Of a stretch of 64,000 nt of DNA, positions 44,587-49,673 are shown one piece after another; positions within the stretch are counted from its first letter, which is position 1, and each line of letters starts with the position of its first letter. The stretch lies in assembly GCA_022821385.1 (NCBI GenBank), contig JAJEDR010000077.1:62001-126000 (forward strand), written 5' to 3'. The position numbers were made by a program, and so were the translations under genes. This stretch comes from Rhodothermales bacterium (GTDB lineage Bacteria; Bacteroidota; Rhodothermia; Rhodothermales; Bin80). The notes beneath the pieces are model-generated. The model ran no database searches, had not been told where the DNA came from, and saw only the letters and a list, made by a program, of their open reading frames with translations.

Positions 44587-45688
44587 TTACTGCAGCAAGT
44601 AAGCCTTGATGAACGCATCCAGATCCCCATCCATCACTGCTTGAATATTGGTCATCTTGAGTTCTGTGCGGTGGTCATTCACCATTGTGTACGGCTGGAA
44701 CACATAGGAGCGAATCTGGCTGCCAAAATCAATCCGTTTCTTTTCCGCCGAACGTTTGTTTTTCTCCTCCTCCTGGATTGCCTGTTCTAGCCGATAGACG
44801 CGGCTTTTAAGCATGGTCATGGCGCGATCCCTGTTCTGGCGCTGGCTGCGCTCCTCAGTACATTCTGCCGCAACTCGCACCCGTTCCCCATCCGAAAGTG
44901 CCCCCGTCCATATCAGGCGTACTCCGGTCTCCAGTTTATTTACGTTTTGCCCACCTTTGCCACCGGAGCGAAAAGTTTGCAACTCAATATCGGCAGCACG
45001 CAAATCAATCTCAATGGTGTCATCAATCTCAGGATAGACAAATACACTCGCAAACGATGTATGGCGGCGCGCATTTGAATCAAACGGGGAAATGCGCACA
45101 AGCCTATGCACTCCAGATTCAGCCTTCAGGTATCCATACGCAAAATCCCCCTGAATCCCCAGCGAGGCGCTTTTGATGCCCGCTACATCGCCCTCTTGGT
45201 ATCCAAGCAATAGCACTTTGAAGCCTTGCTGTTCGGCATATCGAGTGTACATGCGCAGCAGCATTTCGGCCCAATCCTGGCTCTCCGTACCTCCTGCTCC
45301 CGGATTGATCGTCAGGATGGCGTTCCGCCGATCGTCTTCTCCCGCAAGCATGCTCCGCAGCTCCAGGGATTCGACGGATTCAAGTAGAGCCTTGAAGCTT
45401 GCCGCTATGTCCTGCTCAAGATCCTCCCCTTCTTCCTCCGCAATTTCTAACAATGTAGAAATATCCTCCGCATGCTCAGATACAACTTCGTATGCATCAA
45501 GCCACGTTTTTTCCGACGCAATCGCGCGCTCGGTGGCTTGTGCTGCCTCCGCATCGTCCCAGTAACCCGGCGCCAGGCGTTTCCTGTTTAGTTCTTCAAC
45601 ACGTTCTGACCGTTTGGCCAAGTCAAAGATAGCCCCCGAGCACGCGCGCACGCTCCAGTAAGCCTTCTAATTCAGGTCGGGGTATCAT
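44587..45688 (-). CDS. prfB: Peptide chain release factor 2, with programmed +1 frameshift
   Basis: The full product is 366 residues, made from two frames. Frame one begins at ATG 45688 and reads MIPRPELEGLLERARVLGGYL (45688-45626), then meets TGA at 45625-45623. A +1 slip on CTT lets the ribosome read GAC (45624-45622) and continue to 44587, giving DLAKRSERVEELN and the rest. Without the shift only a 21-residue peptide is made; the second frame alone can start only at a GTG at 45651. The body is standard RF2: the stop-codon tripeptide SPF in VRISPFDSNARRHTSF and the GGQ motif in SGGKGGQNVNKLETG. RF2 reads UGA and UAA, so the UGA in its own frame gives autoregulation. Cotranscribed with nadB. 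Confidence 0.96.
45622..45637 (-). promoter_or_regulatory. RF2 programmed frameshift site
   Basis: Reading on the minus strand: GGGGG at 45637-45633, then C TAT CTT TGA C, with CTT at 45628-45626 and TGA at 45625-45623. The G-run acts as the internal Shine-Dalgarno-like stimulator, and CTT-TGA-C is the conserved slippery site. The context matches the Escherichia coli site almost exactly (GGGGG-TAT-CTT-TGA-C there). Confidence 0.93.
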
Positions 45689-46558: not shown

Positions 46559-46969
46559 TCAGTTTCTCTCCTCTGGATTCTGAGGATCAAATAATCCAGA
46601 AAAAAAACGAAGCATAGATTTGGTTAGGGGTGGAGCAATCAAAGGGTGAATCGAGGAGCCTAATGCCCCTCCCGCTATCCCAAGCAACACACCAGGCAAC
46701 ACGGAAATGACAGGAATCAATATGCTCGGAATGCCTCCAAAAAGCCCCCCGATGATATCAAGAAGGCGTAGCGTTGGAGCCGATGCCACAATAAACGCAT
46801 GTACTACAAACAAACACCAGGACAGTCCAACAGCGATCCCCCCAGCAAGCCACCCTCTCTTACAACCAATAACCCCTGCCACAACACCTCCTGCAACACT
46901 CCAGGCCCATCCAAACATCAGGTGAAACGCTAGAGCCGTTACGGTACCCAGCAGAAGCCTTAAGGTCAT
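46559..46969 (-). CDS. Small membrane protein of unknown function
   Basis: A 136-residue protein made almost entirely of hydrophobic, Gly- and Ala-rich helices (about four: near residues 3-20, 24-42, 47-65 and 80-108), with a short polar C-terminal tail (FFSGLFDPQNPEERN). It is likely an inner-membrane protein. No known motif was recognised. Its start overlaps the aminotransferase stop by 4 bases (ATGA), so it is translated from the same transcript, as the last gene of the ALDH-aminotransferase unit. Confidence 0.6.
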   Translation of the reverse strand: MTLRLLLGTVTALAFHLMFGWAWSVAGGVVAGVIGCKRGWLAGGIAVGLSWCLFVVHAFIVASAPTLRLLDIIGGLFGGIPSILIPVISVLPGVLLGIAGGALGSSIHPLIAPPLTKSMLRFFSGLFDPQNPEERN

Positions 46970-48132
46970 GCGTTCCTACATTTTTGAGCATACCTCGCGA
47001 TGCGGCGACCTGCTTCAGCCACCTTGTCATCGGCTGTAGCATAAGAACATCGTACGAATCCTTCACCGCTTGGACCAAAAGCATCACCTGGTACCACAGC
47101 TACGGACTCCTCACGAATCAAACCCTGTGCAAAGTCCTCCGAATTCAGCCCCGTTGATCGGATATCAGGGAAACAGTAAAATGCCCCTTCCGGCTCAAAC
47201 GTACTGAGTCCAGCTGCCCGCAAGGCGTCCACAAGCACCCGCCTGCGGCCATCGTACGCTTGACGCATTCGTTCAACGTCCGGGGCGCATTCCTGGATTG
47301 CAGCAAGCGCACCGTACTGGGCCATGGTTGGTGCACTCATAACCATATACTGGTGCACCTTATAGAGTCCACTATAGATCGAATAGGGTGCAACGGCATA
47401 TCCTAGACGCCAGCCGGTCATGGCATACGCTTTCGAAAAGCCTCCCAAAATAATACTCCGCTCACGCAAGGACTCAACTGCCCATGCACTGGCATGACCT
47501 GTCGACTTTGCTTCACCGTAAATGAGCTGATCGTAGATCTCGTCCGAAAGCAGTATTAGATCGTGTGCTTCCGCCAGGGCAGCAATTTCTTCAAGTGTTT
47601 CCCGTTTCAGGACCGCCCCCGTAGGATTATTCGGATAACCTATAAAAATCATCCGGGTACGTGAGGTTATCCTGCTGGCAATATCTTCAGCTGTGACCTC
47701 AAAGTTTCTTTTTGCACTGGTCGGTACATGCACTACGTGGCCATGCGCAAACCTAGCAAGAGGGCCGTAAGACACGAAGCATGGCTCCGGTATCAGCACC
47801 TCATCTCCCGGATTAAGCAAAGCCAGCATGGCTAACTCCATAGCCTCACTGACACCAACCGTAATCAAAACCTGATCCGGTTCGACGGGATATCCGTACA
47901 GACCATTGAGATGCGCCGCAATTTCTTCACGAAGCTCAAGCAATCCGGCATTGGAGGTATAACCCGTCTTGCCTGCTGCCAGGGAAGCAACGGCCGCATC
48001 AATCACTGCATTGGGCGTTACAAAGTCGGGCTCACCGATCCCCAATGAAATCACATCGTCCATCGTGGCCGCTATATCAAAGAAGCGGCGAATCCCGCTC
48101 GGAGGAACAGACTGAATATGTTTTGCAAGCAT
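46966..48132 (-). CDS. PLP-dependent class I/II aminotransferase
   Basis: A 388-residue fold-type I aminotransferase from the ATG at 48132; an in-frame TTG at 48147 would overlap the upstream stop. The N-terminus (MLAKHIQSVPPSGIRRFFDIAA) matches the aspartate/aromatic aminotransferase family. The PLP Lys is in GGFSKAYAMTGWRLGY (Lys234), with IGYPNNPTGAVL, SDEIYDQLIY (Asp and Tyr contacts to PLP), and FVRCSYATADDKVAEAGRRI with the substrate-carboxylate Arg. The amino-acid substrate cannot be told. It is placed directly after an ALDH7-type gene, which suggests a role in amino-acid (possibly lysine/2-aminoadipate) catabolism. Confidence 0.92.
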   Translation of the reverse strand: MLAKHIQSVPPSGIRRFFDIAATMDDVISLGIGEPDFVTPNAVIDAAVASLAAGKTGYTSNAGLLELREEIAAHLNGLYGYPVEPDQVLITVGVSEAMELAMLALLNPGDEVLIPEPCFVSYGPLARFAHGHVVHVPTSAKRNFEVTAEDIASRITSRTRMIFIGYPNNPTGAVLKRETLEEIAALAEAHDLILLSDEIYDQLIYGEAKSTGHASAWAVESLRERSIILGGFSKAYAMTGWRLGYAVAPYSIYSGLYKVHQYMVMSAPTMAQYGALAAIQECAPDVERMRQAYDGRRRVLVDALRAAGLSTFEPEGAFYCFPDIRSTGLNSEDFAQGLIREESVAVVPGDAFGPSGEGFVRCSYATADDKVAEAGRRIARYAQKCRNA

Positions 48133-48143
48133 CTTTGAATAGG

Positions 48144-49673
48144 TCAAACAAATTCAACCCCTTGCGCCAGAGGAAGATTTTTGCCGTAATTAATAGTGTT
48201 CTTGGTACGGCGCATGTAATTCTTCCATGCATCTGAACCGCTTTCGCGTCCACCACCGGTTTCTTTCTCACCTCCGAATGCTCCACCGATTTCAGCACCG
48301 CTGGTACCGATGTTAACATTGGCTATACCGCAATCACTGCCGGTCGGGCCGCAGAAAATTTCTGCTTCTAGAACATTATCCGTAAATATCGAACTGGCAA
48401 GCCCTTGGGGTACACCATTCTGAATCTCAATTGCTTGATCCAACCGGTCGTACTCGTGTACATAGCAGATTGGAGCAAATGTTTCTGTCTGTACAATAGG
48501 AGCATCGGAAGAAATTTCAACTAGGGCGGGGTTCACGTATACTCCGTTTGCAGGTACCCCCGTGGTTACCCGTCCGCCGCCATGAACGCATCCCCCCTGT
48601 TCGGTAGCCAGCTCGAGTGCACTCTGCATCGCAATTGCGGCCTCCTTATCGATGAGCGGTCCAATCAATACTCCCGGGTCGCGTGGGTCACCAATGCGAA
48701 TTGATGCCCACGCACTAAGCAGGCGTGAAATTAACTCGGCCTTAATACTCTTGTGTACAATAAGGCGGCGCAGTGTAGTACAACGCTGCCCTGTCGTGCC
48801 AACAGCAGCAAAGGTAATGGCTTTTACAGCAAGGTCCAGGTCTGCACTGGGAGCAACGATCAGTGCATTATTACCCCCTAATTCCAACAATGACCGACCG
48901 AGGCGTTTGGCCACACGTTGACCAACTGCGCGCCCCATTGCTATTGATCCCGTTGCCGAAATGAGCGGCAACTTAGGGGAATCTACGAGGGCTTCACCCA
49001 CAATCCGACCACCGTTAATCACTACACTTAGTGCGTCTGGGGCATCTTCAAAGTCATGTATGACCCTTGTGAGCAGATTATGGCATGCCAGCGCGCAGAA
49101 TGGGGTTTTCTCGGAGGGTTTCCAAACGACTGGATCCCCGCAGACCAGTGCAAGCGCTGCATTCCATGACCACACAGCAACCGGAAAGTTAAATGCTGAG
49201 ATAACTCCCACCGCTCCCAATGGATGCCATTGCTCCATTAGCCGGTGCTGCGGACGTTCGCTTTGAATCGTCAGCCCGTAAAGCTGACGACTTAATCCAG
49301 TGGCAAAATCACAGACATCAATCATTTCCTGAACCTCTCCCTCTGCCTCCGACTGGATTTTACCTGCCTCCAAGGTGACCAGTGCCCCTAATTCTTCCTT
49401 GTATTCGCGCAGTAGTTGACCGAACTGTCGGACCAACTCTCCACGACGAGGACCCGGGACATTCCTCCAGGAAAGAAATGCCTCATGTGCAGCCCGACAA
49501 CCCGCTTCCACCTCTGCAGGCATTGCAGTGCCGACCTGCTGAATCAGACTCCCATCAATCGGGCTGTAAACATCTACGGGAGATGCACCACCAAGATGTG
49601 TAGACGCACCTATTGCCAATCCGGGCCCTCGGCCCGCTATTCCAAGAGAATCAAGTAGGGTGTATGTATTCAT
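48144..49673 (-). CDS. Aldehyde dehydrogenase, ALDH7-type (aminoadipate-semialdehyde dehydrogenase-like)
   Basis: A 509-residue NAD(P)-dependent aldehyde dehydrogenase. The general base Glu264 is in LELGGNNA and the catalytic Cys298 in GTTGQRCTT. The features that set apart ALDH7 (antiquitin; in bacteria the piperideine-6-carboxylate/aminoadipate-semialdehyde dehydrogenases) are present: RLMEQWHPLGAVGVISAFNFPVA, the early IQSERP segment, and the C-terminal GGEKETGGGRESGSDAWKNYMR. It converts aminoadipate semialdehyde to aminoadipate in lysine breakdown, or handles betaine or other aldehydes. It is followed by the aminotransferase, 11 bases before its ATG. Confidence 0.9.
   Translation of the reverse strand: MNTYTLLDSLGIAGRGPGLAIGASTHLGGASPVDVYSPIDGSLIQQVGTAMPAEVEAGCRAAHEAFLSWRNVPGPRRGELVRQFGQLLREYKEELGALVTLEAGKIQSEAEGEVQEMIDVCDFATGLSRQLYGLTIQSERPQHRLMEQWHPLGAVGVISAFNFPVAVWSWNAALALVCGDPVVWKPSEKTPFCALACHNLLTRVIHDFEDAPDALSVVINGGRIVGEALVDSPKLPLISATGSIAMGRAVGQRVAKRLGRSLLELGGNNALIVAPSADLDLAVKAITFAAVGTTGQRCTTLRRLIVHKSIKAELISRLLSAWASIRIGDPRDPGVLIGPLIDKEAAIAMQSALELATEQGGCVHGGGRVTTGVPANGVYVNPALVEISSDAPIVQTETFAPICYVHEYDRLDQAIEIQNGVPQGLASSIFTDNVLEAEIFCGPTGSDCGIANVNIGTSGAEIGGAFGGEKETGGGRESGSDAWKNYMRRTKNTINYGKNLPLAQGVEFV

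Follow-up and report, generated by a model that had tools for sequence, protein, structure and literature searches.

A probable programmed +1 frameshift in a Rhodothermales prfB gene with a four-nucleotide stimulator spacing and an altered 16S rRNA tail

Introduction

Autoregulation of prfB through a programmed +1 frameshift is in itself a textbook mechanism: when release factor 2 (RF2) is plentiful, a ribosome arriving at CTT TGA C would terminate at TGA, and otherwise it would slip by one base, from CUU to UUU, and continue into the RF2 body. In the accepted picture, to which a 3-nt spacing is central, P-site pairing is destabilised by the strain that a nearby helix puts on the mRNA. Reporter work in Escherichia coli is said to have found frameshifting sensitive to spacing, and a 2024 study of prfB in Flavobacterium johnsoniae reportedly found frameshifting to be largely SD-independent (SD, Shine-Dalgarno). 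The prfB locus in our window, i.e. the whole 64,000-nucleotide stretch of Rhodothermales DNA that was analysed, raises the question of how this frameshift is organised and stimulated in a lineage in which the geometry is unusual and the rRNA partner weakened.

The 3-nt rule is explicit in the accessible text of two sources: a 2016 review gives 3 nt as the spacing for +1 frameshifting (PMC5009743), and a survey of 12,753 genomes places CTTT three nucleotides past the Shine-Dalgarno (SD)-like element and describes this spacing as almost universally conserved (PMC12421855). No statement on a natural 4-nt spacing was found in the literature searched, which excluded most subscription papers. The closest named loci to the window's prfB are Rhodothermaceae and Bacteroidota MAGs, in support of the lineage supposed in the preliminary description, and the name of the order (Rhodothermales) was assigned from named relatives.

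Results

Gene model of prfB

A mechanical, frame-blind call at this locus returns a 354-residue RF2 with a GTG start (44587-45651), just as the preliminary description had noted. That description proposed a different gene on the minus strand, with an ATG at 45688, 21 codons and CTT TGA C, followed by a +1 slip into a 366-residue RF2, and a reading of the minus strand bears out each of these elements: the early in-frame stop is the TGA at codon 22, and skipping its first T leads into the +1 frame, which holds the remaining gene and stays open to the TAA at 44589-44587. The features of the locus are as follows.

44587..45688, minus strand: prfB (RF2), complete frameshifted gene, 366 aa after the predicted +1 slip (TIGR00020, E. 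coli RF2 alignment)
45623..45688, minus strand: 0-frame leader ORF, 21 codons MIPRPELEGLLERARVLGGYL and TGA (frame-specific conservation)
45633..45637, minus strand: internal SD-like GGGGG, in codons 18-19 (GGG GGC) (GGRGG in all 89 order sites)
45629..45632, minus strand: spacer CTAT, four bases, from GGGGG to the P-site codon CTT (sequence read; relatives)
45625..45628, minus strand: slippery CTTT, with the P-site CTT at 45628-45626 (sequence read)
45622..45625, minus strand: premature stop TGA (45625-45623) and weak-context C (45622) (sequence read)
44587..45624, minus strand: +1-frame RF2 body, from GAC (Asp22) to TAA, with PCRF, RF-1, SPF and GGQ (domains, alignment)
44587..45651, minus strand: mechanical 354-aa GTG ORF of a frame-blind caller, probably not the real start (ORF list)

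The identity of the joined product as RF2 is carried by its profile score (TIGR00020 prfB, 462.9 bits against a cut-off of 370), by the PCRF and RF-1 domains found in a domain search, and by the alignment with E. coli K-12 RF2 that had been proposed as a check, which matches throughout and includes the SPF and GGQ motifs as well as the junction. Slippery CTTT and the C after the stop are both present, and so is an SD-like purine element, GGGGG at 45637-45633. This element had wrongly been placed three bases upstream of CTT; the four bases CTAT (45632-45629) intervene, and the spacing in the window is 4. In the window there is one copy of the entire cassette GGRGGNNNNCTTTGAC, and 100 shuffles gave none, while CTTTGAC on its own is at chance level (12 occurrences against 9.2 expected). 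A second in-frame CTTT is present further downstream in the joined prfB. As to whether an RNA structure further downstream might act as the stimulator instead, the fold at 45640-45560 is ordinary (z −1.09; 34 of 200 shuffles as stable).

Reading frame of the leader

Translation from the GTG at 45651 would yield the 354-residue RF2 without any frameshift, and it is in keeping with a frame that is open from this codon and with Pfam domains that lie wholly within the shorter ORF. The leader, however, is kept in the other frame. Across 9 complete rows of the 10 in the window's own genus (63 bases), the leader DNA is 81.5% identical, and the 0-frame peptide reaches 78% identity versus 60% for the +1-frame reading, which is broken by stops in most rows; the differences number 139, 77 and 203 at 0-frame codon positions 1, 2 and 3, respectively, and are thus concentrated at third positions. 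The residue series in frame one, whose conservation in relatives the preliminary description had named as a check, is indeed conserved. This frame-specific pattern indicates that the 0-frame is the coding frame of the leader; the GTG ORF most likely arises because the caller is blind to the change of frame. Considering also that the CTTTGAC cassette is common to 88 of 89 sites in the order and that the E. coli RF2 alignment crosses the junction, we regard a start at the GTG as extremely improbable.

Stimulator spacing within the order

Of the order's 114 genomes, 107 gave an RF2 match in a protein search and seven did not, and each of the 107 sites was read via a protein-anchored table; a looser two-part prfB pattern was dropped because it caught non-prfB sites. 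The shift cassette is present in 89 of the 107 genomes. All 89 sites carry CTTTGA, followed by C in 88 cases and in the form CTTTGAT in one, and all carry GGRGG, so that none falls into the class "other". As in the window, GGRGG stands at spacing 4 in 55 genomes from 25 genera and 11 families, compared with spacing 3 in 33 genomes from 16 genera and 5 families, and the GGGGGG of a single site (G201) fits both spacings alike. The 3-nt spacing, being published as "almost universal", ranks as a typical and not as a defining feature of the prfB frameshift. Among the 18 genomes without a usable site, two (G165, G171) have the 5' end cut by a contig end, the 5' part of G165 being located on a separate contig with GGAGGG at spacing 4, and in G223 and G227 the script anchors were false and the genes are in-frame.

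Placed on an RF2 tree with 57 rows, of which 53 were order members with long enough sequence and four were outgroup rows, the spacing and loss labels required 7 changes versus 17.9 in shuffles, so that the spacing is inherited yet has been switched several times. Most likely, GGRGG slid by one base via a six-G run, from GGG AGG through GGG GGG to GGG GGC or GGA GGC, and such a slide through GGG GGG, the form seen in G201, would retain pairing at every step.

Beside the former shift site, the in-frame prfB genes of genus g117 (G226, L069; G224, L066) contain GGGGGC or GGGAGG-like remnants, and the frameshift seems to have been lost there only recently. Contig C34 of G013 (family f3), a genome that also has a normal prfB, carries an additional RF2-like gene with 49% identity to the RF2 of the window.

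Occurrence beyond the order

A phylum-wide pattern search, which accepts both spacings equally and requires a CTN leucine codon and TAY and so misses some cassettes, matched 101 of 394 genomes. Every matching genome outside the order (68 of 68) has spacing 3; inside the order the same pattern gave 8 genomes with spacing 3 and 25 with spacing 4, one of the latter (G131; contig C117, identical in sequence to L238) being a chance match that was rejected as not prfB.

An exact scan of GTDB genome contigs for CTNGGRGGCTAYCTTTGAC returned 61 loci, 49 with RF2 downstream in the +1 frame and 12 without; four of these 12 (L229, L242, L247, L253), left out of the count, resemble prfB leaders truncated where the locus or contig ends. 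The titles of 36 of the 49 refer to Rhodothermales, Rhodothermaceae, Salinibacter, Salinivenus, Salinibacteraceae, Roseithermus or, in general, Bacteroidetes/Bacteroidota. A further 11 spacing-4 loci are found elsewhere, with RF2 31-52% identical to the window's: eight are titled Syntrophobacteraceae, Syntrophobacterales, Desulfarculales or Deltaproteobacteria (Desulfobacterota-type), two Gemmatimonadetes and one Methylomirabilis. As spacing 4 occurs in such unrelated records, it probably arose more than once. The RF2 sequences of L255 (Poribacteria SB0670_bin_34; 91.8% identical to the window's) and L244 (Wenzhouxiangellaceae; 67.7%) are of the Rhodothermaceae- and Salinibacteraceae-like form, and both loci are probably misbinned MAG contigs.

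Selection on the element at spacing 4

All 25 genera with Gly-Gly at the two codons concerned use GGA or GGG for the first Gly, and the GGR share of Gly codons amounts to 48.5%, 44.0%, 33.5% and 28.9% in four sampled genomes of the order. The chance of an all-GGR outcome would be about 1e-8 if the genera were independent (0.485 to the 25th power); relatedness raises this value, and the codon argument is weaker than the raw arithmetic because the genera are not independent. With the first codon always GGR against 29-49% genome-wide, the GGRGG element nevertheless looks to be under selection, and it is present in 10 of 10 genomes of the window's own genus, although codon context could be a partial cause of GGRGG in a Gly-Gly pair. 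In 48 of the 55 spacing-4 sites, GGC serves as the second Gly codon; this breaks a spacing-3 core, so that spacing 3 is not being kept. With GGAGGC and CCUCC, a five-pair helix is possible at spacing 4 only.

16S rRNA tails and Shine-Dalgarno use

The 16S tails were taken from loci found with RF00177, a plain tail pattern having mostly matched non-16S DNA; the tail of G239 comes from a pattern match and continues like the 16S tails of its relatives. The single 16S gene detected in the draft assembly of the window's genome (L139) ends, as assembled, in GGATCACCTCTTAAAG, with CACCTCT and not CACCTCC. Within the same genus, G148 (L177) ends in CACCTCATAAAG, with CCTCA, and G149 (L172) in CACCTCCTAAAG, with CCTCC. 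Given that the last base of the anti-SD core takes three forms in one genus, its decay seems to be under way in the window's Rhodothermaceae genus. Family f41 (L173, L175, L176, L178) has CCTCT in three of four available 16S tails and CCTCC in one, and the frameshift is lost in 8 of 8 f41 genomes examined. Further rows in the order, with CACCTCCTA, match a change described for Rhodothermus marinus and Salinibacter ruber, in which the last U of ACCUCCUU is replaced by A and which, in the accessible part of that report, are without SDs (PMC3155529). An archaeon with a CCUCU core is described in a paper whose available text counts 266 prokaryotes without CCUCC (PMC10783764). The 16S tail as a cause of spacing 4 was rejected, as the spacing-3 genome G239 has the same tail, CACCTCCTAAAG, as the spacing-4 genomes G179, G149 and G202.

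Altered tails could also stem from assembly or base-calling errors, in which case the anti-SD would really be CCUCC and the pairing normal; each genome contributes one 16S gene from a draft assembly, and G149, the third genus member with a readable tail, has CCUCC. We consider this explanation unlikely, as one and the same position of CCUCC is altered in the window's genome (G000) and in G148, to a different base in each, all three genus members share TAAAGAGAGCCTTGAG just downstream of the core, and CCTCT recurs in the three genomes of f41, the family in which the frameshift is absent.

SD use at starts was assessed in about 402 kb of the window's genome (the window and 20 further stretches), taking the first ATG of the longest ORF as the start. 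No enrichment was found in this sample (27 of 184 long ORFs versus 240 of 1546 internal Met codons; Fisher p 0.83), compared with 13 of 21 starts versus 13 of 260 internal positions in 45 kb of E. coli; the crude choice of starts would blur a weak signal, although that of E. coli is clear by the same method. Three further genomes of the order likewise gave no significant enrichment (9/50, 9/44, 12/54). The ribosomal protein bS21 is present in the window's genome, and TGA ends 72 of 200 of its ORFs, so that the demand for RF2 is not low.

Predicted pairing between the element and the 16S tail amounts to −10.7 kcal/mol for E. coli at spacing 3, −11.4 and −11.9 kcal/mol for spacing-3 members of the order, about −8.6 to −9.5 kcal/mol for spacing-4 members with CCUCC, for which spacing 4 is the best register, and −6.2 kcal/mol for G148. 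In the window, the CCUCU tail cuts the predicted value to −6.1 kcal/mol at spacing 4 (−5.8 kcal/mol one base further), with four or five pairs possible, and weak pairing may still occur. The altered core renders the usual explanation by SD pairing uncertain for the window's organism.

Discussion

The preliminary description's gene model, together with its programmed +1 frameshift, is backed by the conservation of the leader, by the cassette in 89 of 107 genomes, by TIGR00020 and by the E. coli alignment, and we consider it highly probable that the locus is a prfB gene with a programmed +1 frameshift and an element spaced by 4 nt. By homology, slippage would be expected to occur and to respond to RF2, which would also entail the control of RF2 levels that had been ascribed to this lineage. 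The stimulatory SD-like GGRGG would stand four bases, not three, upstream of CUU and would, at spacing 4, still act via the 16S tail, though with less strength in the window's genome; that GGGGG continues to pair with the tail there is a reading that we favour with some reserve. Against it count the published 3-nt rule (PMC5009743), the CCUCU tail with its −6.1 kcal/mol, and the accessible text of a Flavobacterium johnsoniae study, which describes no obvious fitness loss once the prfB frameshift control is removed (PMC8710568).

Alternatively, the frameshift may be in use while pairing between GGGGG and 16S rRNA is no longer needed in this sublineage, CTTT/TGAC and slow termination being sufficient and GGGGG being either a relic or kept for coding. 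The CCUCU tail and the CCUCA of the sister genome G148, the starts without SD enrichment and the weak predicted pairing in the window would all fit such a scenario, as would the partly available account of F. johnsoniae ribosomes, which generally miss SDs while the prfB site is retained (PMC8710568). In a relic, however, the third base of codon 18, which is free to vary, would be expected to change, whereas GGRGG is found in all ten genus members, and four or five pairs can still form; we therefore rate this possibility as rather doubtful.

Comparison with known systems places the window between several of them. Like E. coli prfB, its gene combines a short 0-frame leader, CTT TGA C, an upstream SD-like GGGGG and an RF2 product, with GYL followed by Asp in the +1 frame; in contrast, E. 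coli has AGGGGG 3 nt from CTT instead of GGGGG at 4 nt, a stronger predicted pairing and SD-enriched starts. F. johnsoniae, of the same phylum in the wide sense, likewise makes no use of SDs at starts and keeps the prfB cassette, but according to the consulted portion of the source its site, AGGAGGUAUCUUUGAC, has spacing 3 and its 16S rRNA keeps the conserved anti-SD (PMC8710568). The Weeksellaceae, SD-poor Bacteroidota for which the same text gives an altered anti-SD and no prfB frameshift (PMC8710568), share the altered anti-SD with the window's genome, which differs in having kept the frameshift. Family f41 repeats the Weeksellaceae pattern: of its four genomes for which a 16S tail is available, three combine CCTCT with the absence of a frameshift.

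Tentatively, we propose that the Rhodothermales stimulator slid to 4 nt and is still selected in ribosomes that start without SDs, and that the sponge-associated sublineage of the window keeps its frameshift despite a decayed anti-SD core (CCUCU, CCUCA), either via a weaker, shifted helix or by SD-independent +1 slippage. The sponge association is our assumption, presumed from the isolate and bin names of near relatives (SB0661, RHO1, CAR3, CAR4). If the proposal is true, the prfB frameshift would be the last SD-dependent step left to these cells, seen in the course of its loss, and prfB a case in which the frameshift mechanism and its rRNA partner may be separating. The large natural 4-nt group and its recurrence in other phyla suggest a geometry more tolerant than published surveys imply, and sister genomes with 3 or 4 nt, and with CCUCC or CCUCU, offer natural test pairs. 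For annotation, this means that prfB here may be overlooked, or given a wrong start, by tools that demand a 3-nt spacer.

Genomic neighbourhood

Promoter- and terminator-like matches near prfB either are no more frequent than chance would give or lie on the wrong strand. A FAD-binding protein (PF00890 and PF02910; 42983-44584, minus strand), which we take to be NadB-like, begins two bases past the prfB stop, and a class I/II aminotransferase (46966-48147, minus strand) lies upstream of prfB. Similar neighbours were observed at the prfB loci of several relatives.
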